A DNA stretch of 64,000 nt from Dechloromonas denitrificans (GTDB lineage Bacteria; Pseudomonadota; Gammaproteobacteria; Burkholderiales; Rhodocyclaceae), in the NCBI RefSeq assembly GCF_020510665.1, contig NZ_CP075187.1, forward strand, positions 2,128,501-2,192,500. The letters run 5' to 3'. Below, one piece after another: positions 35,459 through 57,400 of this stretch. How positions within the stretch are numbered: the first letter of the stretch is position 1; each line of letters opens with the position of its first letter. Under the pieces are notes generated by a model. It was not told the origin of the DNA. It worked only from the letters and a program-made list of their open reading frames with translations, and ran no database searches. Position numbers and translations under genes: made by a program.

Positions 35459-37396
35459 TTATGTCGCCAATGAAACTTCATTTTGCCTTTTGCCAGGCAA
35501 AATCACGTTTTGCCAAGCTGGCAACGAAGGATCCAGCAAAAAATACGGCAATGGGACAGTTATTTGCCGAGCAGATATTTGTCGTAGAGCGTCGGCGAAT
35601 TCATCAATCGTCCTTACCTGAGAGACGCCCGCTACGCCACGAAGCGCATTTGCATTCAACCGCCCCCCGTCGAGTATCTGGACTACATTCTTACCGGCGC
35701 AATATGCATCAACCGCCGCTGACGTTATCGCGCTGGTGACGACAACATCACAACGCTGTAAAAGCCTTGACAACGGTCGCTCATCGACAAGCAGCTCAAC
35801 ACCAGCCAGGAAGTCTGAATCAATTCTGTAAGGAAAAGCTGGATGCGGCTTGAATATGTAACGCGTTTTGCCTTCAAGGGCTTTCACCGTCCCGGCAAGC
35901 CATTTGAATATCAGGTCATTGGTTGAAGAATCGAAATCACCGCAAACGAGAACACGCAGGGTCTCTGTCGTTCCACTCTCCGCATCCACGTACGCTGCCA
36001 AATGAAGATAACGCAACGCTTCGACCTCAACGATTCTCTCGACTGGATAGCCACCTGACAAAGCGGTGGCTTTCGCCACCGGGCCATTTAGCGCGTAGAG
36101 ATCCGGCATTGGGAGACACTGAGCGCCCCTTTCGTCATAACTGCGTGGGTCATAAAAATATCTCAGATCCCAGTAACGAATCGTCGAGTGAGGAACAGCA
36201 ATCAACTGACCATGCCCGTTGCTACGCCAGGCGTGAATGAGCGCCATTTCCCAAGGCTGATTTTCACAAATGTAGATGCCCATGCGCTGACGGGGAACGC
36301 GAGATAGCACCCGCTCGAAGAGTCCGATACGAAGACACTCCATCAGCGCAGCCGGCCCCGTCAGTGACTCTCGCCACTCATCTGCAAGAAGAGGCCAAAG
36401 ATTCAGCGCCGACCCGCTCAGGACTACGCTGCTCTGAAATCCATCAATCCTTCTTACCGCGCGCTGAAGCAGCATGAAATCACGCACCGCCCGAAAAAGA
36501 GTGGAAACAGGTGGCAGGATATCGACGACGCCATGAAACTCCCAACCGTCAGCGTTGCGCTCAAAGCGCTCCACCAAGCTGGCAGCCTCCGCCATTGTCG
36601 GAATTGCCGGCTGGGGATGGAAGATATGAAACCAATTGGTGCGAACGCCACTATCGGAGAGTTTCTCAACGAGACTACTCCAGTAATTCGAAACAAATCT
36701 GCCCGTTTCAAAGGCGCTCTTTTCCAGATGCACCAACACATCAAAAAACGACACATCTGCTAATTCGCTACTGCTCCGGTGCGTATGCCTCAAGGCAGCA
36801 GGAAGCCTGGTAATACAGAAACGTGCAAGGGAGAAGAAGGCGCGCACCACGGGTGGCAAGCGAAGGTAAATCGATTTTTGGCGAAGCGGATAATCCTGAG
36901 AATGACTGAGGCGACGCCACTCGAAATCGATTTTCAACGTCTTGGCGTAAGCACCGAAACAATCCGCAAGCGGGGCATTATCGGAAATCAACAATATCGA
37001 GTCTGCCCCATCCACCAAGAGCAATTTCTCAAGGGCAAGTAGCTTGATCGCATCTGGAACAAGTGATTTAGCCGAGATATTGAATTTCTGTGCCGGAGAT
37101 CCCAGCCACCAGAAACTGAGTTGCTGCCGAATCAACAAATGTTCAACAGCCCTCTTTCCCTGGATTTCAGCCTCGCCAAGCGCAAAGATCCAGGCAAGAT
37201 ACTGACTTCGCAGCGCGTCAGCCGTTTTTTCCACCAGCACGGGAATCGAAATACATCTTTCGTGGCCTTCAGTTTTTTCCCCGAATCCACGCCAAAGCAC
37301 GGTACGCTCAAACGCAAGGTTCGGAGTGCCATCCCCGTCCCAGACCAGAACAGCACCTGCTGTAGCCCCCTCGGCCAAGCATTTGTTACCCGGCAT
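35459..37396 (-). CDS. Large surface-carbohydrate biosynthesis protein (TIGR04326-like, GT-B C-terminus)
   Basis: 645 residues. The C-terminal third resembles CDP-glycerol/GT-B donor domains (YIFKPHPAFPYR, CDVVVTSAITSAAVDAYCAGK) and the middle has GIYICENQPWEMALIHAWR, typical of a family linked to O-antigen loci and first described in Leptospira. The N-terminal half has no recognised domain. The ATG overlaps the stop of the KdsB-like gene by one base (TAATG), so the two proteins are made in step. That pairing suggests this is the glycosyltransferase that uses the CMP-sugar made by its partner, an inference. Confidence 0.7.
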   Translation of the reverse strand: MPGNKCLAEGATAGAVLVWDGDGTPNLAFERTVLWRGFGEKTEGHERCISIPVLVEKTADALRSQYLAWIFALGEAEIQGKRAVEHLLIRQQLSFWWLGSPAQKFNISAKSLVPDAIKLLALEKLLLVDGADSILLISDNAPLADCFGAYAKTLKIDFEWRRLSHSQDYPLRQKSIYLRLPPVVRAFFSLARFCITRLPAALRHTHRSSSELADVSFFDVLVHLEKSAFETGRFVSNYWSSLVEKLSDSGVRTNWFHIFHPQPAIPTMAEAASLVERFERNADGWEFHGVVDILPPVSTLFRAVRDFMLLQRAVRRIDGFQSSVVLSGSALNLWPLLADEWRESLTGPAALMECLRIGLFERVLSRVPRQRMGIYICENQPWEMALIHAWRSNGHGQLIAVPHSTIRYWDLRYFYDPRSYDERGAQCLPMPDLYALNGPVAKATALSGGYPVERIVEVEALRYLHLAAYVDAESGTTETLRVLVCGDFDSSTNDLIFKWLAGTVKALEGKTRYIFKPHPAFPYRIDSDFLAGVELLVDERPLSRLLQRCDVVVTSAITSAAVDAYCAGKNVVQILDGGRLNANALRGVAGVSQVRTIDEFADALRQISARQITVPLPYFLLDPSLPAWQNVILPGKRQNEVSLAT

Positions 37397-38139
37397 TACA
37401 CCCCTTGCATCAAACGCTCGACCTTCTTGAGGTCTTCCGGTGTATCAACAGCCTGCGTGTCATGAATGGTGGAGGCCATGCGAACGCGCATTCCATGCTC
37501 GAGAACACGCATCATGTCGACTGACTCGGCGATCTCCAGCGGGGTCGGTGCGAGCCGGGTGTATTCGAGCAGAAAATCCCGACGAAATGGAATGACACAG
37601 ACCTGTTTGCCCATAGGAACGCTATCCGCCTTGCAACGAGTCGGAATGGGCTCCCGAGAGAAATACATTGCGTTCAGATTGAGATCGCAAACCACTTTGA
37701 TGCAGTTTCTGTCCTCGAACTCAGCTGTATCCTTGATCTTTCCCAGCAGGTTGACGACCATGACTTCCGGATGATCAATCAACGGTTGTACCGCTTCGGC
37801 AATCATGTCCGGATGCGTCATGGGCTCGTCGCCCTGCACCATAACCACGATGTCATATTTAATTTGGTACTTGCTCTCGAGTTTGAGCAGCGCTTCCGCG
37901 CATCGGTCAGATGCACGTTCATATTCGTCGCTCGTCATGACCGCCATGCCACCGATCGATTCGACATAATCGAAAATTTCCTGATCACAGGTTGCCACTG
38001 CAGTATGTGTGAGGAGTGGTGATTGGGCGACACGCTCAAAAACGTGTCCAATCATCGGCTTTCCGAGAATCGGCGCCATCGGCTTTCCTGGGAAGCGACT
38101 GCTCCCCATGCGTGCAGGAATCAAGGCAAGAATTTTCAT
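37396..38139 (-). CDS. KdsB-like CMP-sugar-acid cytidylyltransferase
   Basis: 247 residues, ATG at 38139. Cytidylyltransferase fold with the CTP-binding PARMGSSRFPGKP (residues 8-20) and the metal-binding MVQGDEPM. It resembles KdsB (CTP:Kdo) more than NeuA/PseF. A housekeeping KdsB is normally encoded near lpxK or kdsA, so this copy in the glycan locus probably activates another 3-deoxy sugar acid. It neighbours an HpcH/HpaI aldolase and a HAD hydrolase, candidates for making that acid. The true substrate is unknown. Confidence 0.75.
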   Translation of the reverse strand: MKILALIPARMGSSRFPGKPMAPILGKPMIGHVFERVAQSPLLTHTAVATCDQEIFDYVESIGGMAVMTSDEYERASDRCAEALLKLESKYQIKYDIVVMVQGDEPMTHPDMIAEAVQPLIDHPEVMVVNLLGKIKDTAEFEDRNCIKVVCDLNLNAMYFSREPIPTRCKADSVPMGKQVCVIPFRRDFLLEYTRLAPTPLEIAESVDMMRVLEHGMRVRMASTIHDTQAVDTPEDLKKVERLMQGV

Positions 38140-38159
38140 ATCTTCATCCAAGGTACAAG

Positions 38160-39092
38160 TTATTCATGGTTATCGAATTCGACGGATCTTGCCCATTCGA
38201 CAAACTTGGCCAAACCCTCATCCAGCATTGTAAACGAATCGATTCCCAGCACATTCTTCAGCGCCGAGATGTCCGCATAGATTCCGCTTTGATCGCCCGG
38301 GGTACCGCCCTGAACGTAGAAAGATGCGCCCGGCACATGGCTGCATATACGCTCAAGGAGACTGCCCACCGTTGTCTTGAGTCCTGTCCCGACGTTGATG
38401 GTCGTCCCCTTTGCATCGGGCAAACTCGCGGCGCGAAACCAAGTCTCGACGACATCATCGATGTAAATAATGTCGCGGAAACGATCAAGACTCCCTTTGA
38501 CCTCTATCTTTCCCGTCACCAATGCCTGCGCCAGAAAAATGCTTACCATCCCCTGACGTAAATTCGTCAAATCCTGGCCCGGTCCGTATACATTGAACAT
38601 CCGCAGAATGACGGAAGGCAGTTTGCCCTGATAGACGCGCAAGTATTCTTCTGAGGCGTACTTTCCGACGCCATAACACGACAATGGCCTGCAAAAGCGT
38701 GACTCACCGATCGGCGCATCATCAACCGCGCCATAAACGGACATCGAACTCGCATAAACGAGTCGTTCGACGGAATTCTCGATGCCATAACGGATCAGAT
38801 TCAGGGTCGATACCGTATTTTTCTCAAGATCAGCCACCGGATCATCAAAGCTGATTTCTCCCGAAGACTGCCCCGCTAGGTGAAGAATTTTTCGGCAATC
38901 TCCGGGAATCTTTGCAATCGTCGAGCGCAGAGCCAGATCCCCTTCAATCAGGTCAATTCCCGATGGCACATTTTCAATGCGCCCATTCGAAAAATCGTCC
39001 ACCCCAACTACGGCATAGCCCTCTTGCAAGAAACGGGATGCGACATGAGACCCGATGAAGCCGCCTACCCCTGTAATCAGAACTCTATCCAT
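38160..39092 (-). CDS. NAD-dependent sugar epimerase/dehydratase
   Basis: 310-residue extended SDR, ATG at 39092. NAD motif GVGGFIGSH (7-15), YASSMSVYG, then Y-x3-K in CYGVGKYASEEY, and FNVYGPGQDLTNLRQG. This is the GalE/WbpP-like grouping of NDP-sugar epimerases. The start is 10 bp past the methyltransferase stop. Which sugar nucleotide it uses cannot be read from the sequence. Confidence 0.82.
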   Translation of the reverse strand: MDRVLITGVGGFIGSHVASRFLQEGYAVVGVDDFSNGRIENVPSGIDLIEGDLALRSTIAKIPGDCRKILHLAGQSSGEISFDDPVADLEKNTVSTLNLIRYGIENSVERLVYASSMSVYGAVDDAPIGESRFCRPLSCYGVGKYASEEYLRVYQGKLPSVILRMFNVYGPGQDLTNLRQGMVSIFLAQALVTGKIEVKGSLDRFRDIIYIDDVVETWFRAASLPDAKGTTINVGTGLKTTVGSLLERICSHVPGASFYVQGGTPGDQSGIYADISALKNVLGIDSFTMLDEGLAKFVEWARSVEFDNHE

Positions 39093-39102
39093 CCCGGTAC
39101 AC

Positions 39103-40020
39103 CTATTCCTTGCTGATAATACCAACCAAGGTATCGCATTTGCCGCTACGGATCAGCGACTGCTTATACGACTCCTCGACATCCTCGCCGAGCAGCTCTG
39201 TAAACCGGCCCATTCCACCGGGTCGCCCATTCCTCGCCCAGACCATATGATTCGACAGGTCATACCGCTGATCGCGAAGTATCTCGCAGGAACCGCCCAG
39301 TTGATCCAGAAGGAAACGTAGCGAGGCCTCACTGAAATACCACGGATGGGCAATCGACCAATAAAAGCGCTCGAACTCGGGAATGTCATAAACCGAATAC
39401 AGGGGGTCTGCTGCGTTCGGGATTTCAAATATGATCCGCCCGCCCGGTCGAAGCATCTTGAGTTGATCCTTCAAGAACGCCAAAGGGTCTGCAATATGTT
39501 CAAGCACGAAAAAATGAAGTATCAGGTCAAACTGCGCCTGTGGCACTTCTTGCTGCAACTGCCCAAGCGACTGATAGACCGGCAAACCGCGCCCTCTTAC
39601 AAACTCGCTGAATACTCCGGAAGGCTCAATCCCGGTGCAGCGATGCCCCGCTTCAGCCAGGGGATAAAGCATGAATCCCGACGAGCAACCGACTTCAAGA
39701 ACATCAGAAGCCCCCACCAGAAAAGGTGCGAGATATTTCATTCTCCGCAAGCGGGTCGATTCATTGGCAACAAGGTGCTGCTCAGTCTTCAGCCAGCCAC
39801 CCGCATCACCAGATCGGCTCGACATGAAGCCTTCAAATTCAGCCGCATAAAAGCGAGCCTCTTCCTCTGGCGTCAGGCCAGGAAACTGATATCGAACATC
39901 GCAAGCTTCGCAGTGAAAAAAAGCACGAGAGGCCGATTCATCGCCGTATACATGGCGTGTAACTACGGACTGGGCATCATGTCCAGCCAAACAAAGCGGA
40001 CACTGATTAGGCAATGCCAT
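39103..40020 (-). CDS. SAM-dependent methyltransferase with N-terminal zinc ribbon
   Basis: 305 residues. Two Cys pairs at the N-terminus (CPLC, CEAC) form a zinc-ribbon, followed by a class I methyltransferase core with SAM motif LEVGCSSGFML and LHFFVLEHI. The zinc-ribbon/Rossmann layout matches proteins found near sugar-nucleotide genes that methylate or process deoxysugars. It overlaps the acyltransferase by 14 bp. Substrate unknown. Confidence 0.8.
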   Translation of the reverse strand: MALPNQCPLCLAGHDAQSVVTRHVYGDESASRAFFHCEACDVRYQFPGLTPEEEARFYAAEFEGFMSSRSGDAGGWLKTEQHLVANESTRLRRMKYLAPFLVGASDVLEVGCSSGFMLYPLAEAGHRCTGIEPSGVFSEFVRGRGLPVYQSLGQLQQEVPQAQFDLILHFFVLEHIADPLAFLKDQLKMLRPGGRIIFEIPNAADPLYSVYDIPEFERFYWSIAHPWYFSEASLRFLLDQLGGSCEILRDQRYDLSNHMVWARNGRPGGMGRFTELLGEDVEESYKQSLIRSGKCDTLVGIISKE

Positions 40021-40621
40021 TGACTACATCTCCTCCGAAATGCCCGGTTTCGAGCTGTTTTACCATGATTGCCGGATTACCCGCCGCAATCACCCCAGCG
40101 GGAATATTTTTGGTCACCACAGAGCCGGCTGCAATGATACTTCCCTGACCGATGGTCACGCCGCGCAAGATCGTCACCCCGGCGGCGATCCATGCGTCAT
40201 CACCAATGGTGATCGGGCACTCCTCGAGTTCAATCGCTGCAGGAAAAGGATAACCGTGCTTGGCCATATACTGCTGATGTCGCACCCTAGCATCAACCGG
40301 ATGAGTCAAGTTATCGCAAATGAAGCAGTCGTGGGATATCAGAACCCGGTTACCAATATCAACACGTGAAAGTGACCATATCCGCGTCCCCTGCCCGACA
40401 TAACTGCAATCGCCGATGGATATGACGCCTTTATTGAAAAAACTATAAAGCTCACCCGCACAAATCACATAGTCGCCAAGTGAAATTTCGCCCGAAGCCG
40501 TCTTGGTGATGATGATTTTTGAAAGATCTGCAGAAGTATGGCGCCCTTGCCGATACTTCGAGGAAAACCGCCTCACTCGAAAGAGCCACAGCTTGAACCT
40601 GGCACGAAGTCTCATCAGCAT
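40007..40621 (-). CDS. Hexapeptide-repeat acyltransferase
   Basis: 204 residues. The second half has repeated hexapeptides (IGDDAWIAAGVTILRGVTIGQGSIIAAGSVV) of the left-handed beta-helix transferases, including the usual acetyl-CoA-site His in LTHPVDARVRHQQ. The basic N-terminus may form a membrane-touching helix. It likely O- or N-acetylates a sugar of the glycan. It overlaps the aldolase gene by 7 bp. Confidence 0.83.
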   Translation of the reverse strand: MLMRLRARFKLWLFRVRRFSSKYRQGRHTSADLSKIIITKTASGEISLGDYVICAGELYSFFNKGVISIGDCSYVGQGTRIWSLSRVDIGNRVLISHDCFICDNLTHPVDARVRHQQYMAKHGYPFPAAIELEECPITIGDDAWIAAGVTILRGVTIGQGSIIAAGSVVTKNIPAGVIAAGNPAIMVKQLETGHFGGDVVNGIA

Positions 40622-41382
40622 GGCAATTGGGGATTGGTCGCCGACGCACGCAAGAAGACAGAATCAATCGAGTAGGCCAGGAACCTGTAGCCCTCTGCCA
40701 TTCTCTGCCGGAGTTGCTCTTGATCAGGCTGCACGACGTGAACGCCACATGGCTTGCTGAACGTTGCACAGACACTGCGAATTCGATCCATCACCGCAAC
40801 AAATTCAGGCGTATCAAATTTCCCGGTCATTCCCATGGAGGCAGAAAGATCATACGGGCCGATCAAAATCGCATCCAAGCCGTCGACTGCCAGAATTTCT
40901 TCCAGTTGGTCTACCGCGTGGACATGCTCAATCATTGCAATCAGCAAAGGAGCCTGAGCCTCCTCGGCATAGCTGTCGAAATGCATGCCAAACAAATTTG
41001 CGCGCGAAAAGCCGACGCCCCGCTTGCCTGCCGGAGGCCAGCAACAGGCATCTCGCGCTCGATTCAGTTGCACAGCCGATTCCACCATTGGAACGATCAC
41101 ACCTCCAGCCCCTGCATCCAGTGCCTGCTTGCAGTCTTTGGGCTCCCCTTGTGCCAGACGAACCAGCGGCAAAGTACCGCCCAGTTCAAGGGCACGGAAC
41201 AAGTCAGGTAATTGATGAGGGCTAATGGAACCATGTTCCATATCAACAGCCACCCAGTCATAACCTGACTGCCCCAGTATTTCGGCAATGGAGGGGTGAG
41301 GAATCTGAATCCAGCTTCCGATGCTTGCTATTCCATCGCTCAAGGCACGGCGAATGGCTTTGATTTTTTCTCTTCGGTTCAT
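40615..41382 (-). CDS. HpcH/HpaI-family class II aldolase
   Basis: 255-residue TIM-barrel aldolase of the HpcH/HpaI type, whose members join pyruvate (or oxaloacetate) with an aldehyde to a 2-keto-3-deoxy acid, or reverse this. Active-site residues align: His50 (DMEHG), Arg75 (LVRL), Glu152 (IEHV) and Asp178 (GPYDLS). It overlaps the HAD gene by four bases (ATGA). In this setting it could build a sugar acid for CMP activation instead of breaking down aromatics, which is an inference. Confidence 0.85.
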   Translation of the reverse strand: MNRREKIKAIRRALSDGIASIGSWIQIPHPSIAEILGQSGYDWVAVDMEHGSISPHQLPDLFRALELGGTLPLVRLAQGEPKDCKQALDAGAGGVIVPMVESAVQLNRARDACCWPPAGKRGVGFSRANLFGMHFDSYAEEAQAPLLIAMIEHVHAVDQLEEILAVDGLDAILIGPYDLSASMGMTGKFDTPEFVAVMDRIRSVCATFSKPCGVHVVQPDQEQLRQRMAEGYRFLAYSIDSVFLRASATNPQLPC

Positions 41383-42035
41383 AGTCCGACAAAATCCTCG
41401 ACAAAAGCACCGTTGTAGTTACTGAAGACACCACGATTATCGTGATGTCGGCGCAACAGAAACGGCACATCATTTTCAAGCGCAGCATTCATGTCAGCAG
41501 TGGCATCGCCGATCATCAGAGAATCAGACGACAAAACATCCCGACGACGAAGCACCTGCTGAATGGCATCTCCCTTGCGAGTTGGCGCGCCAAAAACATC
41601 GGAAAAACATGGGCGCAATCTGATCGCAGCCAGAATCTCTTCTATCTCGCCCTGCGGAGTGGCAGTAACCAAAACAAATTCCTGCTGATACGGATTGCTA
41701 CGCAGAATGTGCTCAACGCCAGGAACCCACGGAGCCGCAACAACGCGACTCAATACGGCACGCGAGAAACGGTGAATGTAGTCTTCAACCAGTTGCTCCG
41801 TCACCGGCAAGCCAGCCCACGCCAGATAAACAGGCATTTTCTCAAAGCGGGACATTCCACCATTCGCTTCGTGGTGTAAGCAAACACGCTCCGCAACCTC
41901 CGCACCGAACGGGAAAAACAACTGCACAAAGGCTTCCGTTTTGATAGCAACGGATTCCTTGATAACGCCATCAAAATCCCAGAATATCAGGCGGAACCCG
42001 GATAATCTCTCGCCCAAAATCAGGCTCTCACCCAA
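41379..42035 (-). CDS. HAD-superfamily hydrolase
   Basis: 218 residues from a TTG at 42035 (another TTG at 42017, with GGTGAG upstream, is as likely). HAD motif I WDFDGVI with nucleophile Asp20 and Asp22, motif II VLVTAT, the helical cap between, and motif III/IV MIGDATADMNAA. Probably a sugar-phosphate phosphatase, comparable in role to KdsC or the phosphatase step of nonulosonate pathways. It shares stop/start overlaps with the aldolase (ATGA) and is within 16 bp of the FkbM gene. Confidence 0.85.
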   Translation of the reverse strand: MGESLILGERLSGFRLIFWDFDGVIKESVAIKTEAFVQLFFPFGAEVAERVCLHHEANGGMSRFEKMPVYLAWAGLPVTEQLVEDYIHRFSRAVLSRVVAAPWVPGVEHILRSNPYQQEFVLVTATPQGEIEEILAAIRLRPCFSDVFGAPTRKGDAIQQVLRRRDVLSSDSLMIGDATADMNAALENDVPFLLRRHHDNRGVFSNYNGAFVEDFVGL

Positions 42036-42868
42036 ATCTGGTTATAAGTATTCTGGAAGCCCGTCGTCGAACTATCGATCATTTCGGAATGGAGCTTGTG
42101 CTTAAGGCTTAATCCAGCGGCTTTCAGCAGCTTTTCGCACCCTTCAGCCTGCTCAAGAAAATCATCGTTAACCTCGATCAGAACCTCCTTGACTCCCTTC
42201 AATACCGACGCGCCTCCGGACAGAATCAAGTGCTCGATACCATCGACGTCCATCTTGATATAGTCTGGTTGAGGAATGTTCAGCAGGTCACGGACCGAAT
42301 CCATTGGCAAACCCATGGTCTGAAACTCGAAAACCTTTCTGATCGCCTCGCCATCCCATCCGTAATCCTCTCCAAAGGTCGACAATGCTCCACCCCACTC
42401 CGTGGTTGTCATCCGGAGTTGATTCGAGCCAATTTCGGTGCTCAGCGCAAACGGCACGATGCAAACCTTGCTCACCAGATCGTTCAGATAAATGTTCCGC
42501 GCCAGCAATTCGAGATTGAAAACCGACGGCTCGAAAGCCCATACCCGGCAATTGCGCTGCTTGGCTGCGTACGTTGCGTACAAGCCAATATTGGCCCCGA
42601 CATCCCAAAGAATAGCCCCTTCCGGAATGCCATCGATCCACTCCAGCGTTTCCGGCTCTTTGGTAGAAAAAGTCTGGGCGCGCCACTCACAAAGGACATT
42701 GGGGGTGGCGAATTTGAATGAACTGCCTTTATGCGTGACCTCGCGCACTTGCTCCATCGATGCGCTCAGTATCTGCTTGAAGAGATACTTGCCAAGCCGG
42801 GTCTTGCCGCCAGTATCGAGTGAGAATTGGATCGCCCCTTTCAGAGCTGCTTTCAAATGGGCTTTCAC
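42020..42868 (-). CDS. FkbM-family methyltransferase
   Basis: 282 residues from a GTG that overlaps the epimerase stop (GTGA). SAM motif LWDVGANIGLYA (near 89-100), FEPSVFNLELL and IKMDVDGIE, the FkbM signature. FkbM-type enzymes O-methylate sugars or polyketides. It probably caps or decorates a sugar in the glycan. The exact position cannot be inferred. Confidence 0.87.
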   Translation of the reverse strand: MKAHLKAALKGAIQFSLDTGGKTRLGKYLFKQILSASMEQVREVTHKGSSFKFATPNVLCEWRAQTFSTKEPETLEWIDGIPEGAILWDVGANIGLYATYAAKQRNCRVWAFEPSVFNLELLARNIYLNDLVSKVCIVPFALSTEIGSNQLRMTTTEWGGALSTFGEDYGWDGEAIRKVFEFQTMGLPMDSVRDLLNIPQPDYIKMDVDGIEHLILSGGASVLKGVKEVLIEVNDDFLEQAEGCEKLLKAAGLSLKHKLHSEMIDSSTTGFQNTYNQIWVRA

Positions 42869-43755
42869 GCTTTGATTCCTTCGTCGGTATGGATGTTTTG
42901 TATTTCCCCGATCAACTGCAGCAAACCCTGGCCCAGATCGACATGCATCGGTGGCACGTATTTCCTGCCCAGCTTGGGTTGATAGGCATAGGGAGTTCGG
43001 ACATAGTGGCCAGCATAGGGAGTTTCTTCGAATTCCACGGCTTGGGGAATGCCGAGTATTTCTCCCAGCATTTTCAGCAAATCCATCACTCTCATCGGCT
43101 CCTGCCCGGTAAGGACGACGTGCTGATTCCTGAATTCCTCGCCCAGAGCAGCCACGCTCGCTCGCGCCGCATCTTCGACATGGATGTACTCCCGCATCGC
43201 TTCGGCACTACCTGCATAACGAATCTTGCCGGTCTTGAGCGCTTCATTGACGATCCGCCACAATCCGTTCTGGTGATCCGACCTCGGCCCATAAAGCGAG
43301 CCGTAGCGCAAAACGGTGTAATCCAGCCCGTATGAAGCCTGATACTCCTCGACATAGTGCTCTGCAGACTGCTTGCTGCAACGGTAGAAACTACCTTGCC
43401 GGCTGTAAACGTACACCGTGCTGGCATAGAAAAAACGTTTGACACCGTTAAGGCGACAAGCCTCAAGCACATTGGCATTGCCCAGCACGTTGATGCGCAC
43501 CGTTTCCAGCGGTTTGTCCAGTGCCTCGTTCAGGTCCGCCAGCGCCGCAAAATTATAGACATACTCACAACCGGAAATGGCAAACGACAAACGCTCCGCA
43601 TCCAGCAGGTCACCGATCACCATTTCCTGATCGCTGCGCAGCCATGGAGAGGCTCTGCGGTCGTAAACGGAAACCTGATGACCCGCGTCGCTAAGCGCAT
43701 CTGCAACATGGCTGCCGAGAAATCCGGAACCTCCGATTACACATACCCTTGCCAT
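42865..43755 (-). CDS. NAD-dependent epimerase/dehydratase
   Basis: 296-residue extended SDR. NAD motif GGSGFLGSH (8-16), YASTVYVYS, and EYQASYGLDYTVLRYGSLYGPRS. The usual Y-x3-K is replaced here by YRCSK, still Tyr-x3-Lys. It is one base from the dehydrogenase stop and overlaps FkbM, so it is tightly coupled to that block. Sugar unknown. Confidence 0.82.
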   Translation of the reverse strand: MARVCVIGGSGFLGSHVADALSDAGHQVSVYDRRASPWLRSDQEMVIGDLLDAERLSFAISGCEYVYNFAALADLNEALDKPLETVRINVLGNANVLEACRLNGVKRFFYASTVYVYSRQGSFYRCSKQSAEHYVEEYQASYGLDYTVLRYGSLYGPRSDHQNGLWRIVNEALKTGKIRYAGSAEAMREYIHVEDAARASVAALGEEFRNQHVVLTGQEPMRVMDLLKMLGEILGIPQAVEFEETPYAGHYVRTPYAYQPKLGRKYVPPMHVDLGQGLLQLIGEIQNIHTDEGIKA

Positions 43756-43756
43756 C

Positions 43757-44743
43757 TCAGAATCCTTCTCTTTGCACCGTGTACTCGGCCTCGGGCACCA
43801 GCCCCATCAACGGCGTACCGGTCAAAAAACGTATTGCCTCTTCCGTTGCCTCGATTTCCATACGCGTACGGCAATCAATGGACATCGAGCCCATGTGCGA
43901 CGTCAGTACACATCGCTCGATTGAAGCCAGCCGCCCCTTATAGGGTTCCTCGCAAAACACATCGACTGCAGCACCGGAAAGATGACCGGACTCCAGCACA
44001 TCAGCGAGGTCATCTTCATTGATGATGCCACCGCGAGCCGTGTTGATGATCATTGCATCAGGCTTCATCTGGAGAAGATGTTCGCGACGCACCATATTTT
44101 TTGTCTGTGCAGTCAACGGAACGTGGAGGCTGACAATATCTGCCTCTCGAAAAACAACATCTTTATCCACCCACTCGACAGGTAAAGAAGGAGGCAATTG
44201 ACAAGCCTCTGGATTGATGTCGCTGACCAGCAGTCGCCCAGCCCCCAGCGAGGCCAGATGCTGCAAAACCCGCCCGCCAATACGGCCAGCCCCAACGACG
44301 CCAATCGTCAAATCGGGAATGCGCCGACCGAAATAGCGATGCCAAACGCCACGATGCATCTGAGCACTGGCAACATGGATGGAACGCATCAACGAGAACA
44401 TCAAGCCGATAGTCAGTTCGGCAACGGCCGGCGCTGGCGCGTCAGGTGTGTAGCTGACTGAAATTCCGCGTCGCTCAGCCGCCAGCAAATCAACGCTATC
44501 CAGCCCGATGCCGACACGGGAAATCATTTTCAGTCGGGGGGCATTGGCCATCACTTTCTCTGAAATCACCTCTGTCCCGGCAATCAGGACCTCGAAATCG
44601 CCCACCATTTCGGCGAGCTCATGTTCCTTGAGCTTGCGGCCCAGCGGGTTGATCAGGTACTCGATTCCTGCCGCTTCAAGCTGCCGGATCGGTAGATCAT
44701 TTTTATCCCCGAATGGAACAGTCGTGATCAGAACTTTGGCCAT
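43757..44743 (-). CDS. D-isomer-specific 2-hydroxyacid dehydrogenase
   Basis: 328-residue NAD(P)-dependent dehydrogenase of the SerA/D-lactate type. NAD motif GVVGAGRIGGRVLQ (near 145-158), and the catalytic Arg (NTARGGIINE), Glu (FCEEPY) and His (TSHMGS). It could oxidise a hydroxyacid sugar intermediate or reduce a keto acid. It lies between the lactonase-like and epimerase genes, so a role in sugar-acid synthesis is plausible. Confidence 0.85.
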   Translation of the reverse strand: MAKVLITTVPFGDKNDLPIRQLEAAGIEYLINPLGRKLKEHELAEMVGDFEVLIAGTEVISEKVMANAPRLKMISRVGIGLDSVDLLAAERRGISVSYTPDAPAPAVAELTIGLMFSLMRSIHVASAQMHRGVWHRYFGRRIPDLTIGVVGAGRIGGRVLQHLASLGAGRLLVSDINPEACQLPPSLPVEWVDKDVVFREADIVSLHVPLTAQTKNMVRREHLLQMKPDAMIINTARGGIINEDDLADVLESGHLSGAAVDVFCEEPYKGRLASIERCVLTSHMGSMSIDCRTRMEIEATEEAIRFLTGTPLMGLVPEAEYTVQREGF

Positions 44744-44765
44744 CTGAAATCCCTGTGAATCAAAT

Positions 44766-45446
44766 CTATATATCCATACTTAATGCGGTATCGAGCAACC
44801 AGATTGCGTCTTTAACGAGACATGCCGGCAGTGCAACATAATCGTGCGGGGCAGCAAGCACCCTTCGGAACACAGCAGCCTTTTCCTCACCAGTCGCCAG
44901 TACAAAAATAGACGACGATTGCGCTATAACGACCGGCGTGACCGTAATTCTCTCTCGCGGCTCTTTGCTACCCGTAACCGGAACAACCTTGCGAGATCGC
45001 TCAAAAAGCGCCTCATTACCTGAAAACAAGGAGGCAATGTGTCCGTCTTCGCCCACGCTAAGCAGCAAAACGTCAATTTTACTCGACAAGAGACTTTCAT
45101 AGCGAAAAGATAGGCCTTCTCGATCCGCATCCTCAGCCTCGATACGGAATACCGAGCACCCCTCTGGAACACCCCGAGCAAACAAGGTCCGCATCGCCAA
45201 AGCATAATTACTGGCTGGATCGTCGGGCGGCACGCAACGCTCATCACCAAAGAAAAAGCTTACCGAGCGCAGTTCCTGAAAAGATGGCACATCGCGCCAC
45301 GCCGCATAAAGCCGCTCGGCACTTCTCCCGCCTGTCAACATGACACGGCAGACACCCTGCTCGGCGCAAATATCCTGGATCGCATCCTGAATCACGGATG
45401 CAGCGCTTCTAGCCCAATCCTCAACACTGAATTGCAGGGTGCTCAA
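44766..45446 (-). CDS. 6-phosphogluconolactonase-like protein
   Basis: 226 residues from a TTG (behind GAGG) that overlaps the upstream stop (TTGA). Members open phosphosugar lactones or isomerise glucosamine-6-phosphate. Motifs LTGGRSAERLY, FFGDERCVP (with PDDPASNY after) and GEDGHIASLF match the lactonase branch. A lactonase in a surface-glycan locus is unusual; with the adjacent 2-hydroxyacid dehydrogenase it may handle an aldonate-type intermediate. Confidence 0.82.
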   Translation of the reverse strand: MSTLQFSVEDWARSAASVIQDAIQDICAEQGVCRVMLTGGRSAERLYAAWRDVPSFQELRSVSFFFGDERCVPPDDPASNYALAMRTLFARGVPEGCSVFRIEAEDADREGLSFRYESLLSSKIDVLLLSVGEDGHIASLFSGNEALFERSRKVVPVTGSKEPRERITVTPVVIAQSSSIFVLATGEEKAAVFRRVLAAPHDYVALPACLVKDAIWLLDTALSMDI

Positions 45447-47086
45447 ATCCGGACCTCGTCATAGTCGCCAACAAAATTGACCAGCCACGCCTCGAGTGCT
45501 TCTGGTCCGGACAAAACCGGGATACCGTGAGCGGCGCGATCATCCGATTGCACAGTCCCTGTTGGATCATAATAAACGGAGGGCTTGCCAAGACTCCTGG
45601 CGACCAGTGCAGTTGAGGTAAACGGCAAAGAAACGGTAACGCGGCAAGCTTGAATAAGCCTTATGGCAGAGACATCTGCATCAACCAAATGAATGCTCAG
45701 TTCGTTCGCAAGACTGTCGGCCAAGCGACGATAGCTCGGGTGAGCTGTCCGACCAATATTTCGCTTTCGCTTCCATAGCACCCGCCCCTGATGACGCTTG
45801 ACCGCAGAACTGACATGCTCAAGAAATAAATTCACCGTTTCCGGCACAAAGTACTCTGCCTCAAGCCCCAGGATCCGATACCAAGAGGTACGTGTGGGCG
45901 TTACGTCGAAAACCGCCACCGACAAACCGGGCTGACGCTCAACTACATCAGTATTACCTTGAAACCAGATTGGCCCTACGGTCTCAATGTGAGCAGAAGC
46001 ACCCGCAACCCTGCGGACAAAATCCGCCTGATACTCATCCCAAACCAGATATCGAGGCCAATGCATAGCTTCGTATCCATAATATGGCAGCGGGTAGTCA
46101 TCTCCGCGCTTGAAAGGCTCAGTGTTCGTCGAATAGAAATAAAAAAGTACAGCCGCGCCCCTCTTCTCTACCTCATAAGTCCAGAGCGGCCGGTAAAGCC
46201 AGTTACTGTTGTGAAAAAGATATTCAGCGGCAAGTTGGTCCTTAGGCAGCAAACTAGCCTGCGCAGCGATTGCTGCCTGATTGAGCAAAACGGCATGCCA
46301 CCAGCGGCCACGCAGGAGATCGACACCGGCGATCAGAACAGCAACAACTAACCACTTAAGGAAACTGAAAATTTGCCCAACCCCCCTCAACGGCGGCAAG
46401 GCATTGCCCTGATAGGTAATTGAACAGCCGAATTTCAACATATCAGGGGCACCGCGAACGCTATGCCGCACAGACGAAATTTGCGGATTCCGTTCCTGCC
46501 ATTGCAAATACCAGGACACAATATCGTGGCTACTTGCCCCATCACGTTGGCTAGGCAAATTCGCCGAAACCAGTTCGGAAAAGTAGGCATACGGGCGAAC
46601 TGAATTCGGGCTGACATTTTTTGCCGTTAACCAGAGGATCACCATCCTCAGGGAGCGCACGATGCCGCCCGCGAACATCACGCAGACATAGACCCACCAG
46701 AGCAGGGCGCACCGCGAATGGCTGACACGAAAGCCATACTCCTCAACAAGCAGGCGCCATTGCCTTGGCATGGCATATGCAATACTGGCATTTGGCATCC
46801 CAAGAGACACCAATAATGCGCGGTTCAGGTTTACTCCGGCCGACTTGGAGAGCAGATATTGGCGCAAAACGAGTTCAGCCAACTCGTGCGCACCAAACAG
46901 GAGTGTATTTGAGAAAAATGCGGCCTCGAAGCCCAAGTCGCGCGTTGTAAATTCATTCTTAAGTTGATGAATGATGCTTAAGCGACCCGACTGCCTCAAT
47001 ATCCGATAGCCGCGCATCATGGCACGCAAATAACGTCGCCTGTGCACAGCGATAATGCTTGTCAAGACATTTTGAAACGCAGTCAA
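45443..47086 (-). CDS. Large membrane-associated surface-carbohydrate protein (GT-B-like C-terminus)
   Basis: 547 residues if the TTG at 47086 is used; the first ATG is at 47020 (525 residues), and neither has a clear ribosome site. Two hydrophobic stretches (about 128-150 and 240-258) suggest membrane contact. The C-terminal half has a motif shared with capsule and polysaccharide glycosyltransferases, SLPFTSTALVARSLGKPSVYYDP. No family is named with confidence. Together with the protein at 35459 it brackets the aldolase/HAD/KdsB-like block. Confidence 0.65.
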   Translation of the reverse strand: MTAFQNVLTSIIAVHRRRYLRAMMRGYRILRQSGRLSIIHQLKNEFTTRDLGFEAAFFSNTLLFGAHELAELVLRQYLLSKSAGVNLNRALLVSLGMPNASIAYAMPRQWRLLVEEYGFRVSHSRCALLWWVYVCVMFAGGIVRSLRMVILWLTAKNVSPNSVRPYAYFSELVSANLPSQRDGASSHDIVSWYLQWQERNPQISSVRHSVRGAPDMLKFGCSITYQGNALPPLRGVGQIFSFLKWLVVAVLIAGVDLLRGRWWHAVLLNQAAIAAQASLLPKDQLAAEYLFHNSNWLYRPLWTYEVEKRGAAVLFYFYSTNTEPFKRGDDYPLPYYGYEAMHWPRYLVWDEYQADFVRRVAGASAHIETVGPIWFQGNTDVVERQPGLSVAVFDVTPTRTSWYRILGLEAEYFVPETVNLFLEHVSSAVKRHQGRVLWKRKRNIGRTAHPSYRRLADSLANELSIHLVDADVSAIRLIQACRVTVSLPFTSTALVARSLGKPSVYYDPTGTVQSDDRAAHGIPVLSGPEALEAWLVNFVGDYDEVRI

Positions 47087-47284: not shown

Positions 47285-47827
47285 TTATTGACTGCCATCG
47301 CTTGCAGCAAAAACCTTCACGATGGTTGGCAACTCATTGAGAATATATTTTCCTGGAATATCAAAAACCCATAAATAACCGGCTGACAAAAAGGCTTTTT
47401 GAGATGCCACATTTTCCGCGTAGGCGCCAGCCTCCACCCAACGCAATCCAAGTTCATTGATTGCCCACTTCGTTACCGCGGATATTGCCTTTTGCCCAAG
47501 CTTCTGCCGCCACGCTGTCTTATCGAAAAGACAAACACCTATATGTGCTGTTTTATGGTGATATTCTATCCCATGCAAACGCACGGTCCCGCAATGAGTC
47601 GTGGCAGAGTCCTGCCATATGCCCCACAGCACTGAACCGGAAGAAACTTCATCAGCGGCCACGAAATCAATCACTGACTGCGTGGTTTGAACCGTCCGTT
47701 TGACGCCATCCAGATAGCGATTCACATCGGGATCATTGAGCCCTGAAACATAAGCAGGATGAACATCAGCCGTTTTCAACGGCCGTAGATACCCGCCTTC
47801 AAACCCCAAAAGAACATCCGGACTCAT
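47285..47827 (-). CDS. GNAT acetyltransferase (possible PseH)
   Basis: 180 residues from the ATG at 47827, which overlaps the pseI stop by four bases (ATGA). Acetyl-CoA motif region QKLGQKAISAVTKWA, then VEAGAYAENVASQKAFLSAGY typical of RimJ/RimL-like GNATs. Coupling to pseI and membership of the set suggest PseH, the UDP-4-amino-sugar N-acetyltransferase of the pseudaminic pathway, but PseH sequences vary and this could acetylate another sugar. Confidence 0.75.
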   Translation of the reverse strand: MSPDVLLGFEGGYLRPLKTADVHPAYVSGLNDPDVNRYLDGVKRTVQTTQSVIDFVAADEVSSGSVLWGIWQDSATTHCGTVRLHGIEYHHKTAHIGVCLFDKTAWRQKLGQKAISAVTKWAINELGLRWVEAGAYAENVASQKAFLSAGYLWVFDIPGKYILNELPTIVKVFAASDGSQ

Positions 47828-48870
47828 CCCAGCAAATCCCAAGTCAAAGGGGTACCCCGTTTTACATTCTGGTTTACAGCCTTACCCAGAGCGACCTCCA
47901 CATACTTAGTTGCCAAGCCCAAGCCGGGCCGAATCGCGCGCAAATTCTCGCTGGTCAGGCGCTCACCAGCCTTCATATCTTGAACTACGTATAGCGACCG
48001 ACGGTACTGAAGAGATTTTTTCTCCGCCTCAGTCGGACCATAGCTCACTTCGCCCAAAGCCTGCCACGCCAGTTCAGTTTCCTTTACCAACTGCGCCATC
48101 TCGGCAGGCTCCATTGAAAAAGCGCTATCAACACCACCATCAGCACGAGAAAGGGTGAAGTGCTTCTCTACCACGGTGGCACCCAGCCCCACGCTGGCAA
48201 CCGATACACCGACACCCATGGTGTGGTCAGACAGACCCACTTCGCAGCCAAACAGTTGCCGCAGATGGGGAATGGTCCGGATATTCGTGTTCGCAGCTGT
48301 TGCAGGATAAGTACTGGTGCACTTGAGGAGGATCAGATCCTTGCACCCCGCTTCACGCGCAGCACGAACCGTTTCATCAAGCTCAGCCACCGAAGCCATG
48401 CCGGTCGAAATGATCAGAGGCTTCCCCGTTGCAGCCACTCGGCGAATCAACGGCAGGTCTGTGTTTTCGAAAGAAGCAATTTTGTAGCATGGCACGTCCA
48501 AGCTCTCAAGGAAGTCGACCGCCGTATCGTCAAAGGGCGTGCTGAACGCAACGAGGCCCAACTCACGCGCCCGATCGAAAATCGGCTTATGCCAATCCCA
48601 CGGCGTGTAGGCCTCTCCGTAAAGTTGATAGAGAGATGTTCCTGCCCACAAACTATTCGGATCGCTGATACTGAATTCACGCTCATTCAGATCAATTGTC
48701 ATGGTCTCCGGCGTATAGGTCTGGATTTTTAACCCATGAGCCCCCGTCTTGGCAGCAACTTCGACAATTTCGAGAGCTCGCTCCAATGACTGGTTGTGGT
48801 TACCGGACATCTCAGCAATCACAAATGGCGGATAGTCCGCACCGATTTTTCTGCCGTCTATCTCAATCAT
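47824..48870 (-). CDS. pseI: Pseudaminic acid synthase
   Basis: 348-residue NeuB-family enzyme that condenses PEP with the 6-deoxy sugar released by PseG. The N-terminal TIM barrel keeps the key residues: EMSGNHN, Lys48 (LKIQT), Lys130 (YKIAS), Ser214-Asp-His216 and Glu235-Lys-His237. The C-terminal SAF/antifreeze domain (RRSLYVVQDMKAGERLT to the end) is complete. AEMSGNHNQS favours PseI over NeuB or LegI. Four-base overlaps on both sides (ATGA with the ATP-grasp and the GNAT genes). Confidence 0.92.
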   Translation of the reverse strand: MIEIDGRKIGADYPPFVIAEMSGNHNQSLERALEIVEVAAKTGAHGLKIQTYTPETMTIDLNEREFSISDPNSLWAGTSLYQLYGEAYTPWDWHKPIFDRARELGLVAFSTPFDDTAVDFLESLDVPCYKIASFENTDLPLIRRVAATGKPLIISTGMASVAELDETVRAAREAGCKDLILLKCTSTYPATAANTNIRTIPHLRQLFGCEVGLSDHTMGVGVSVASVGLGATVVEKHFTLSRADGGVDSAFSMEPAEMAQLVKETELAWQALGEVSYGPTEAEKKSLQYRRSLYVVQDMKAGERLTSENLRAIRPGLGLATKYVEVALGKAVNQNVKRGTPLTWDLLG

Positions 48871-49823
48871 TCAAACGCTCCCATATCCTTGTCATCAAAA
48901 ACCAACGCCCCTTGCACTCTCACCATGATTTGGTTCTCCTTGATGGAGGGGAAACTGACCAAGCCACCCTCTGCCTCATCAATTGCCCACAAGACATCAG
49001 AGAATCCCAGGCGATGGCGCATCAGGACGGTTGATGAAAAACGAGGGTTTATTTCAAAAACTCTCGGCCCATGCTCAGTAAGGCGCAACTGAATATTCAT
49101 GCTGCCACGCAAATCGAGCCCCTCGGCAATCCGCTCGCACATAAGCGCCGTTTCATCGTCCTTGATCACCTTCGCCCAACCCGTGAAGCCCCCCGTTAGA
49201 CGCCTCAACATCAGCAGACTGGAAACCCTTCCATCCCGAGTGCGATATACCGCACAAGTCACCTCACGCTCAGCTGGCTCCAGTAACTCCTGAAACACAG
49301 CGTTCGGGTAACGCGGAATCAGATAGGCCGCCTCTTCCTCGTCGGCAACCACGAATACCGCGCGGGAACCTGATCCGAAACGGTTTTTTAGAATGCACGG
49401 ATATGAAACAGCATCGCCGTCACTGACCGGCTTGGTCCACGGAACAGGTAACCCCAGCCGGGATATCGCATGCGCAGTTTCAAGCTTGTCGAGCCCTGCA
49501 GCCACGACCTGGTTTCCTGCAGTAATCCATTTAACGCCTGGAACCAACTCTTCGAATGGGCGAATTGCAGCCAACTCTGGCTCTGACATTGGCATGACCA
49601 TGTTCACCGCGTGCTGCAAAACAATCGCTTTGAGTGCGGCCAAATATCCAGAATCACTCGCCGGAGGCAACGTAGCAAAGCAATCAACAAATCGGTGACC
49701 GCCATGCTGATGGTGGGTATCTACACCAAGCAGCCAGAGATCGGGACGGCTTTCGCGAAGAATCGTGGCAACCCCTTGGGCGATATCTCCGCCAATTCCT
49801 GTGATCAGTACTACAGTTTTCAT
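48867..49823 (-). CDS. ATP-grasp enzyme
   Basis: 318 residues, carbamoyl-phosphate-synthase-like ATP-grasp fold. Features: N-terminal ITGIGGDIAQGV, ATP-binding CILKNRFGSGSRAVF and YRTRDGRVSSLLMLRRLTGG, and the metal/ATP end FEINPRFSST. These ligases join a carboxylate and an amine, often with an amino acid, through an acyl-phosphate. Located between pseI and the phosphoesterase it may add an amino-acyl group to the sugar. Substrate unknown. Confidence 0.8.
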   Translation of the reverse strand: MKTVVLITGIGGDIAQGVATILRESRPDLWLLGVDTHHQHGGHRFVDCFATLPPASDSGYLAALKAIVLQHAVNMVMPMSEPELAAIRPFEELVPGVKWITAGNQVVAAGLDKLETAHAISRLGLPVPWTKPVSDGDAVSYPCILKNRFGSGSRAVFVVADEEEAAYLIPRYPNAVFQELLEPAEREVTCAVYRTRDGRVSSLLMLRRLTGGFTGWAKVIKDDETALMCERIAEGLDLRGSMNIQLRLTEHGPRVFEINPRFSSTVLMRHRLGFSDVLWAIDEAEGGLVSFPSIKENQIMVRVQGALVFDDKDMGAFE

Positions 49824-52272: not shown

Positions 52273-52329
52273 AGATCACCTTGCTTAATTTATATTAGTC
52301 TATAATTTACTGATCCCGAAAAATAAAAT

Positions 52330-53394: not shown

Positions 53395-53425
53395 TTTGGA
53401 CTCATCAACGACACCGCACGAGGTA

Positions 53426-54754: not shown

Positions 54755-54836
54755 GACAAATCCAAATTTTATTGATGTGGCGGCGAATCAAAGATTCCGA
54801 GAGTTTCATTCACGACAAGAGAGCCATCTTAATGAA

Positions 54837-55526: not shown

Positions 55527-55537
55527 AGCGCGGCTCA

Positions 55538-56329: not shown

Positions 56330-56361
56330 ATCGGTATTCGCTCCAGTTTGGATTAGTCAAG

Positions 56362-57387: not shown

Positions 57388-57400
57388 AACAAGTCCCCTT

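Follow-up and report, generated by a model that had tools for sequence, protein, structure and literature searches.

Does this locus encode a route to CMP-activated sugar acids in which an aldolase builds the carbon skeleton? In the CMP-Kdo pathway, a 2-keto acid is made, dephosphorylated by a HAD enzyme and loaded onto CMP by a KdsB-family enzyme; to our knowledge, the skeleton in all known CMP-ulosonate routes is built by a PEP-dependent synthase. The window analyzed here, a stretch of 64,000 nucleotides from Dechloromonas denitrificans, contains a gene block (35459-45446) in which the initial annotation saw a possible third ulosonate route. From sequence comparisons, we consider it probable that five genes, encoding a KdsB-like cytidylyltransferase (hereafter module KdsB), an HpcH/HpaI aldolase, a HAD phosphatase, a D-2-hydroxyacid dehydrogenase (DH) and an SDR, together produce an ulosonate (a 2-keto sugar acid) destined for a surface glycan and load it onto CMP, the aldolase replacing the PEP-dependent synthase.

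All listed ORFs of the block lie on the minus strand (Table 1), and the coordinates given by the initial annotation agree with the ORF list. Both couplings it described are present, namely the TAATG joining the KdsB-like and GT-B-like genes (junction GTGTAATGCC) and the ATGA, a 4-base overlap, joining the aldolase and HAD genes (junction CTATGAACC). The SDR gene at 42865, which it had passed over, is a member of the set. KdsA and NeuB are absent from the block among ORFs of at least 100 aa and the families scanned, as it had claimed, but the PseI/NeuB genes just upstream went unmentioned. Of the two further proteins it placed in the same chain, the DH does belong to its family, and the lactonase-like one reaches 124.1 bits, against a TIGR01198 cut-off of 124.45; however, the place of the latter fails outside Nitrosomonas-type and some other loci, a PGL-profile match being found in 53 of the 57 loci of Nitrosomonas type and in eight of the 23 others. 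The third-route reading is partly supported, by its families, its linkage and the Nitrosomonas genomes lacking KdsA and WaaA, but it omitted the SDR, misplaced the lactonase-like gene and missed PseI/NeuB.

Table 1. Genes of the block and of the adjoining gene run in the window.
Product	Coordinates	Strand	Evidence and remarks
TIGR04326 protein with a predicted GT-B-like fold; may transfer the activated acid	35459..37396	-	456 bits, cut-off 250
KdsB-like cytidylyltransferase, proposed CMP-ulosonate synthetase	37396..38151	-	CTP_transf_3, E 6.9e-47
NAD-dependent epimerase/dehydratase, accessory	38160..39125	-	PF01370, E 1.5e-47
SAM methyltransferase, accessory	39103..40020	-	PF13489, E 4.7e-19
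Hexapeptide acyltransferase, accessory	40007..40621	-	PF00132, E 2.4e-12
HpcH/HpaI-type aldolase, proposed ulosonate-forming step	40615..41382	-	PF03328, E 1e-30
HAD phosphatase (HAD_2)	41379..42035	-	PF13419, E 1.1e-8; 4-base overlap with aldolase
FkbM-type methyltransferase, accessory	42020..42868	-	PF05050, E 5e-11; between HAD and SDR genes
Extended NAD-type SDR, epimerase/dehydratase fold	42865..43755	-	PF01370, E 2.2e-47
PGDH-like D-2-hydroxyacid dehydrogenase (DH)	43757..44743	-	PF02826, E 8.8e-48
6-phosphogluconolactonase-like protein (PGL), accessory	44766..45446	-	TIGR01198, 124.1 bits
PFTS-motif polysaccharide protein, accessory	45443..47086	-	TIGR04417, 305.1 bits, cut-off 100
PseI/NeuB-family protein	47824-48870	-	500.6 bits to PseI; starts 2.4 kb beyond block
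PseF-like cytidylyltransferase	54837-55580	-	196.9 bits, cut-off 205.7; same gene run
Second NeuB-family protein	56362-57423	-	Same gene run as block

In the favored scheme, the aldolase would couple a sugar aldehyde to a 2-keto acid, which could be pyruvate or else hydroxypyruvate coming from the PGDH-like enzyme; a phosphate would then be removed by the HAD enzyme, the SDR would set or alter one hydroxyl, the KdsB-like enzyme would load the acid onto CMP, and a GT-B transferase such as the 35459-37396 protein would use the CMP-acid. The basis for this scheme consists of the five families, their catalytic residues, linkage across several lineages, a separate KdsB clade and a genus without KdsA and WaaA; the synthetic direction, step order, substrates and product are what we infer.

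The five genes recur together elsewhere, against the initial worry that they might not. Using the SDR (42865) as bait, the best 80 SDR-anchored loci comprised 57 of Nitrosomonas type and 23 others, and all five genes lay within 9 kb in 65 of the 80 (55/57 and 10/23, respectively). Around 14 non-seed aldolase matches, with 10 kb examined, a cytidylyltransferase was found in 12 loci (module KdsB in ten, another CTP_transf_3 protein in two) and none in two, while DH was present in 11, HAD in six and SDR in five; all five, KdsB included, were present in three (L138, L159 and L163). With HAD and SDR the less frequent, aldolase, activator and DH appear to be the steadiest part. As a control, none of 24 loci of other HpcH/HpaI enzymes from the same taxonomic order had a KdsB match, in flanks of approximately 1.5 kb, narrower than the 10 kb above. 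The grouping exceeds chance, since the same genes recur, in differing orders, in other lineages.

Variants of the set were also found. A NeuA/PseF-like subfamily of the same Pfam family replaces KdsB in L099, L164, L165 and an Acuticoccus plasmid, which suggests that activation is retained regardless of the subfamily. On the plasmid, the aldolase, cytidylyltransferase, PGDH, HAD and oxidoreductase genes are consecutive, scoring 287 (aldolase), 339 (DH), 199 (HAD) and 361 bits (SDR) against the module profiles, but only 14 for the cytidylyltransferase. Among the less complete loci, which speak against the proposal, L054 has a module-like KdsB and a distant aldolase (26%) without DH and HAD; L065 lacks DH and carries KdsB plus a NeuA-like enzyme; L055 and L056 have DH and SDR, with neither aldolase nor cytidylyltransferase in the stretch examined; L097, from a MAG, has only SDR, HAD and PGL; and in L166, L167 and L052 the aldolase is present and no cytidylyltransferase was found in the locus.

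The individual proteins retain the expected key positions. In the HAD phosphatase, D20, D22, T126, K154, D177 and D181 are invariant (6 sequences), as are G8, G11, G14, D32, S112, Y124 and K128 in the SDR (20 sequences) and the Arg-Glu-His triad R237, E266 and H283 in the DH (6 sequences). The predicted model of the TIGR04326 protein (pLDDT 83) has GT-B transferases and UDP-GlcNAc 2-epimerases as its best Foldseek matches (E from 2e-8), with TM-scores of 0.39-0.58 by target and 0.26-0.36 by query among the 50 matches listed, and we call its predicted fold GT-B-like. Of 42 loci, 12 (the window among them) have its cluster, 15 that of the FkbM-type methyltransferase and eight that of the epimerase/dehydratase (38160).

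The nearest relatives of the DH with solved structure are PGDHs; assignment as a D-3-phosphoglycerate dehydrogenase equivalog was rejected (TIGR01327, 216.8 bits against a cut-off of 454). In a plain pyruvate route the DH has no obvious place. A bolder version, which we regard as unlikely, is a third class of CMP-ulosonates that keep the C3 hydroxyl. Here, the PGDH-like enzyme would provide hydroxypyruvate, either directly or as a phosphate that the HAD enzyme frees, and the aldolase would join this to a sugar aldehyde; the KdsB with its altered pocket would activate the product, which in Nitrosomonas would take over an outer-surface role that Kdo-bearing glycans have elsewhere.

The cytidylyltransferase is itself informative for the favored aldolase route. 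The window protein passes the subfamily models NF009905 (291.6 bits, cut-off 255) and NF003952, and misses the kdsB equivalog cut-offs of TIGR00466 (144.9/155.2 bits) and NF003948 (183.8/281 bits). Module KdsBs form their own clade with 100/100 support against 11 other KdsBs, and differ from these by five near-fixed switches (E. coli numbering: H181 to Q, Q211 to M, E210 to D, Y185 to I and D50 to C). Module rows have Q181 in 22/22, I185 in 20/22, D210 in 21/22 and M211 in 22/22, and the other KdsBs have H181 in 11/11, Y185 in 10/11, E210 in 11/11 and Q211 in 10/11; these four residues of canonical KdsB we take to be on the Kdo side. All 14 aligned module rows share window residues K23, D108 and D236, which align with E. 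coli K19, D100 and D235. The CTP/Mg role of the latter was transferred by motif from the A. aeolicus numbering, as given in PMC3149649.

Could this enzyme activate ordinary, KdsA-made Kdo, with the aldolase, HAD, SDR and DH making some other precursor of the same glycan? The window's genome does contain KdsA (403.6 bits), nine of the 16 genomes with the module have a KdsA over cut-off, and the enzyme passes the two subfamily models above. However, neither KdsA over cut-off nor a WaaA match was found in any of 81 Nitrosomonas genomes, yet the module KdsB is the sole KdsB in all five of those in which it was counted, so that a role in activating KdsA-made Kdo for lipid A is hardly tenable in this genus. 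In line with this, a survey of nine Kdo2-lipid A genes reports lpxK alone for N. europaea (PMC3087551). The initial annotation had reckoned a sole KdsB against its idea: the window's genome has a second, canonical one, flanked by LpxK-like and adenylate-kinase-like ORFs (named by eye), while in Nitrosomonas the module KdsB is indeed alone, but as KdsA and WaaA are missing too, the idea of an aldolase route is strengthened. The set can also be said to co-occur apart from kdsA and not to require KdsA, since Nitrosomonas keeps it. Module-bearing G579, a Syntrophomonadaceae MAG of unstated completeness, likewise has one KdsB and no KdsA over cut-off. Together with the separate clade, its five switched positions and the replacement of KdsB by NeuA/PseF-like enzymes near the aldolase, these data make the ordinary-Kdo explanation unlikely.

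A further possibility is that DH, SDR and HAD constitute a separate pathway, e.g., for an acid, amino or hydroxypyruvate-derived group, and that an aldolase and a KdsB yielding a simple 3-deoxy acid often, though not necessarily, accompany it. Six relatives (L049, L050, L053, L057, L135 and L136) encode DH, SDR and HAD but neither aldolase nor KdsB, and L137 has SDR and HAD only; L049 and L053 were tested by family and the other five by clustering. All seven carry a cytidylyltransferase of a PseF-like cluster, and five of them (not L057 or L135) a radical SAM/SPASM protein. In addition, subtype II loci (L161, L162, L176 and L177) combine aldolase, KdsB and DH with Gfo/Idh/MocA and GmhA-like SIS clusters, with no SDR seen in the stretch examined, and the low HAD and SDR counts around the aldolase point the same way. 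The relatives that lack both aldolase and KdsB are a reason to treat the aldolase route with caution. Nevertheless, DH accompanies 11 of the 14 anchored aldolases, and in Nitrosomonas and Acuticoccus the five-gene runs resemble one pathway, so that we hold the split to be distinctly unlikely.

The same cluster encodes NeuB/PseI-type synthases at a distance of 2-11 kb, but it is very improbable that the KdsB-like enzyme activates a nonulosonate made by them. The PseI-like (47824) and NeuB-like (56362) genes do share the gene run, and NeuB-type matches occur in 7 of 23 non-Nitrosomonas-type loci; still, the window has its own PseF-like cytidylyltransferase at 54837, the 57 Nitrosomonas-type loci, examined at the level of the locus, list no NeuB-type match, and the features annotated in the Acuticoccus stretch (24.8 kb, with a gene table that is perhaps incomplete) include none.

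The best-known HpcH/HpaI enzymes (HpaI, GarL and YfaU/RhmA) are catabolic, and the module aldolases share the catalytic His, Arg, Glu and Asp with GarL and YfaU, which would suit a degradative role. The window aldolase scores 107 bits against PF03328 (cut-off 25), and its H50, R75, E152 and D178 align with GarL H50, R75, E153 and D179; the HpaI, GarL and RhmA equivalogs were rejected, all falling under cut-off (153.3/368.8, 133.5/406.75 and 119.4/441 bits). Y177 (16/16 module rows) and H215 (15/16) are in neither GarL (Ser and a gap, respectively) nor YfaU (Ala and Leu). In the tree, module aldolases group together, away from GarL and YfaU, although the separating branch is weak (45/0). We consider it most improbable that the aldolase is a degradative enzyme, acting on a sugar acid or an aromatic intermediate, whose cytidylyltransferase neighbor is incidental, given the cytidylyltransferase in 12 of 14 non-seed aldolase loci, the glycosyltransferase-like, FkbM and Wzy_C proteins also encoded at module loci, the module-specific Y177 and H215, and the obligate chemolithoautotrophy of N. 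europaea (PMC3087551), where such breakdown would be odd.

Compared with canonical CMP-Kdo synthesis (KdsD, KdsA, KdsC, KdsB), the set is alike in overall logic and in the residues aligned with the CTP/Mg sites, but it has an aldolase in the place of PEP-dependent KdsA, carries H181Q, Y185I, E210D and Q211M in its KdsB clade, adds DH and often an SDR, and occurs without KdsA and WaaA. CMP activation is common to the set and the nonulosonate routes (sialic, pseudaminic and legionaminic acids; NeuB/PseI, NeuA/PseF), and the NeuA/PseF-like enzymes beside some aldolases are a nonulosonate-like trait; however, the set is without NeuB, and its carbon skeleton would derive from an aldolase of another family. 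That aldolase shares sequence family and catalytic residues with HpaI, GarL, YfaU/RhmA and hydroxyketoacid aldolases, but differs in its sub-cut-off equivalog scores, in Y177 and H215, and in being found within surface-glycan loci adjoining a cytidylyltransferase. The Shewanella Kdo8N route (KdnA, KdnB, KdsB2) likewise handles a modified ulosonate, for which a dedicated KdsB-like enzyme exists in addition to the housekeeping KdsB; unlike the set, it retains a KdsA-type synthase and is not known to use an aldolase.

The enzyme families are all known, and so is the kind of end step, in which a KdsB-family enzyme loads CMP. If the proposal is true, the use of an unrelated aldolase in several phyla would mean that this chemistry arose separately, it would point to an undescribed sugar in the surface glycans of bacteria, and some genes annotated as Kdo cytidylyltransferase would not produce CMP-Kdo. 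Moreover, the set provides a tangible entry point to the cell envelope in the ammonia oxidizer Nitrosomonas.

All genes named in the initial annotation were correctly placed, and the ORF listing showed them as a tightly packed run on the minus strand, in a genome assembled as a single contig of 3.457 Mb. The two junctions proposed to couple genes, TAATG from the KdsB-like gene to the GT-B-like gene and ATGA from the HAD gene to the aldolase gene, are both real in the window sequence, and the claim that neither KdsA nor NeuB lies inside the block agrees with our search of it. Together with a short-chain, epimerase/dehydratase-type protein (SDR, at 42865), the KdsB-like cytidylyltransferase, the HpcH/HpaI aldolase, the HAD phosphatase and the PGDH-like D-2-hydroxyacid dehydrogenase (DH) constitute the gene set followed here.

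Features of the block, with strand and the basis of each assignment
Feature	Coordinates	Strand	Basis
TIGR04326, surface-carbohydrate family	35459-37396	-	NCBIfam; predicted structure GT-B-like
KdsB cytidylyltransferase family	37396-38151	-	Pfam, NCBIfam
HpcH/HpaI aldolase	40615-41382	-	Pfam, NCBIfam
HAD	41379-42035	-	Pfam, NCBIfam
2-hydroxyacid dehydrogenase	43757-44743	-	Pfam, NCBIfam
Near 6-phosphogluconolactonase	44766-45446	-	Pfam, NCBIfam

Upstream of the block, window 47285-57423 holds PseI-like and NeuB-like synthases (47824, 56362), a PseF-like cytidylyltransferase (54837) and a PseG-like gene named by eye, and is best read as a putative pseudaminic- or legionaminic-type pathway beside the module. 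A PseI-like gene is also found near the module in the Denitromonas, Rhodocyclaceae and Zoogloeaceae loci (L040, L041, L043).

We then examined how widely the gene set recurs. Among 200 genomes of the window's order, 65 had an aldolase match; the five best besides the window came from five genomes of one genus, all of which carry KdsB, aldolase, DH, SDR, HAD and the 6-phosphogluconolactonase-like gene (PGL) in one run, while no KdsB match was found in the short flanks scanned around 24 other aldolase loci fetched from this search. The SDR was used as bait against 84,980 species genomes, and the best 80 of 347 relatives, mostly Nitrosomonas, were kept; 65 of these 80 have SDR, DH, HAD, aldolase and KdsB within 9 kb. 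The set is complete in 55 of the 57 Nitrosomonas-type loci (L059-L119 minus L065, L088, L099 and L113; titled Nitrosomonas, Nitrosospira or Nitrosomonadaceae, four with broader titles) and in 10 of the 23 others, namely Denitromonas, the Rhodocyclaceae and Zoogloeaceae genomes, Gallionella, a Nitrosomonadales MAG, Polaromonas, a Burkholderiaceae MAG, proteobacterial and gammaproteobacterial MAGs (L048, L058) and Syntrophomonadaceae. As gene order varies between lineages, this recurrence is more than inherited synteny. Incomplete SDR-anchored loci include L046 and L052 (both without KdsB, L046 stopping soon after the aldolase), L051, a MAG locus with the aldolase split into two open frames (L051:11616-13156), L108, a short contig, and L054, L055, L056, L065, L097, L099 and L113. 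Searches of open-licence PubMed Central found the gene set named in none of the titles and abstract openings listed.

A lactonase-like protein had also been placed in the chain; the gene is indeed there, but a lactonase step was rejected as part of the core, as the PGL profile matches 8 of the 23 loci outside the Nitrosomonas type and the Acuticoccus run described below lacks the gene. The profile matches 53 of the 57 Nitrosomonas-type loci, where the only copy tested (L035) scored 153.2 against the true PGL cut-off of 124.45 and may be a housekeeping enzyme. Six other loci in a neighbour survey of the window and 41 hand-picked loci have a PF04199 cyclase cluster (two members confirmed by Pfam).

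To look at the set from the aldolase side, a profile (A9, E <= 1e-70) was searched in three phyla: the window's own, where 7 of 398 genomes matched, that of a Spirochaetia MAG, L099 (3 of 149), and that of a Bacteroidetes MAG, L113 (7 of 247). Leaving out the seeds (G000, G347, G577) and G015, of a seed's genus, 14 aldolase loci were counted. A module-type KdsB lies in the fetched stretch of ten (L138, L158-L163, L176-L178; L158 begins at a contig end), L164 and L165 carry a different CTP_transf_3 protein, and no cytidylyltransferase was found in the stretches fetched for L166 and L167. The DH accompanies 11 of the 14, the HAD 6 and the SDR 5, with all five genes in three loci (L138, L159, L163), which makes aldolase, activator and DH the steadiest part, and SDR and HAD mark the window's own subtype of the module. 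Between the aldolase and FkbM, L160:9372-11138 gave no HAD match, unlike the closely similar L159. Moreover, an Acuticoccus plasmid, found via its SDR (46.5%), has aldolase, acylneuraminate-type cytidylyltransferase, PGDH, HAD and oxidoreductase genes consecutively; four of the proteins match module profiles at 199-361 bits, and the cytidylyltransferase reaches 14 bits to the KdsB profile. That the aldolase keeps its place while KdsB gives way to another cytidylyltransferase subfamily suggests that the set serves to couple the aldolase product to CMP.

The low HAD and SDR counts temper our confidence: an aldolase-based route to a CMP-activated ulosonate is the best explanation, and we consider this candidate pathway probable by a modest measure. 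They also leave some room for a separate DH-SDR-HAD pathway that is often, but not necessarily, combined with the aldolase-KdsB pair, which we regard as improbable. In its favor, L049, L050, L053, L057, L135 and L136 hold DH, SDR and HAD without aldolase and KdsB (L137 also without DH); all seven loci carry a PseF-like cytidylyltransferase, most of them a radical SAM/SPASM enzyme and some a HisC-like aminotransferase. In addition, the SDR search matched 10 of the 398 genomes, only four of which also have the module aldolase. Based on these observations, the DH-SDR-HAD trio may serve more widely, with aldolase and KdsB as one of its two endings. The sister arrangement (L049:8321-14704, L053:9016-14971) may make another CMP-activated compound.

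Kdo for LPS was set aside as the product on the Nitrosomonas counts. Five Nitrosomonas genomes contain no KdsB-family match at E <= 1e-15 other than the module KdsB; of ten other module-bearing genomes, the window's apart, nine have at least two such matches and G579 one. Kdo machinery is missing genus-wide: none of 81 Nitrosomonas genomes has KdsA over the cut-off (4 of 14 control genomes were positive), and none has a WaaA match (E. coli, Caulobacter and Bacteroides controls were positive). Weaker matches in the KdsA search, none above 110 bits where the cut-off is 314, were taken for DAHP-synthase relatives. A 2010 survey credits N. europaea with only lpxK among nine Kdo2-lipid A genes (PMC3087551). 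The module KdsB of Nitrosomonas, counted in five genomes, is very unlikely to act on Kdo made by KdsA or to serve lipid A. No NeuB-type match is listed within the 57 Nitrosomonas-type loci.

The enzymes themselves also differ from known relatives. In a tree of 33 hand-chosen sequences, one branch with support 100/100 parts the 22 module KdsBs from the other 11, among them E. coli KdsB, the second KdsB of the window's genome and some long-branched sequences. Five near-fixed switches replace E. coli D50, H181, Y185, E210 and Q211 by C, Q, I, D and M, respectively. The last four E. coli residues presumably contact Kdo. Such changes would be expected of an enzyme still loading CMP, onto another acid, and residues aligned with those for CTP and metal are kept. 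PMC3149649 describes K19 and the aspartates that bind metal, and has the C-terminal domain bind Kdo. Two unannotated phage records (H2, H3) carry KdsB-like genes with 36-38% identity to the window's. As for the aldolase, the module enzyme has its catalytic His, Arg, Glu and Asp in common with GarL and YfaU. Module members further share a Tyr (window Y177; all 16 rows) and a His (window H215; 15 of 16), both absent from GarL and YfaU; the window's aldolase scores far below the equivalog cut-offs of HpaI, GarL and RhmA. A tree of 26 module and 29 other hand-chosen aldolases separates them by one change, on a branch with support of just 45/0.

For the proposed final transfer, the predicted structure of the TIGR04326 protein (pLDDT 83) resembles GT-B glycosyltransferases and UDP-GlcNAc 2-epimerases, a fold that does not tell the donor; sequence searches against Pfam and solved structures gave nothing useful, and the fold search alone helped. 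Nitrosomonas loci have a conserved transferase-like protein divergent to the module KdsB (e.g., L060:2243-3529 and L035:7973-9256, the latter without a Pfam match), and the family of the latter has a predicted fold that is general GT-B/2-epimerase only.

A second subtype comprises L161, L162, L176 and L177 as well as L165, whose activator is NeuA-like; gene families were checked by search in L161, L162 and L165 and assigned by clustering in the others. These loci combine a SIS isomerase resembling GmhA with a Gfo/Idh/MocA oxidoreductase and show no SDR in the stretch examined, which suggests that their aldehyde comes from a sugar phosphate.

Altogether, the aldolase route put forward in the initial annotation stands as the leading reading, backed by the co-occurrence of the genes, by loci in which another subfamily replaces the activator, and by the lack of KdsA and WaaA in one module-bearing genus. 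Judged from protein families, which allow this order, the aldolase would condense a 2-keto acid with a sugar aldehyde, the HAD would dephosphorylate the product, the SDR would adjust one hydroxyl, the KdsB-like enzyme would load CMP and the GT-B enzyme would transfer the activated acid. Since the PGDH-like enzyme is steadily present, the 2-keto acid is perhaps not plain pyruvate; it may be made from a 2-hydroxy acid, e.g., hydroxypyruvate from glycerate, and for 3-phosphoglycerate as the DH substrate the evidence points neither way. In such a pathway, the aldolase would take the place of a KdsA- or NeuB-type synthase in supplying a CMP-activated ulosonate for a surface glycan.
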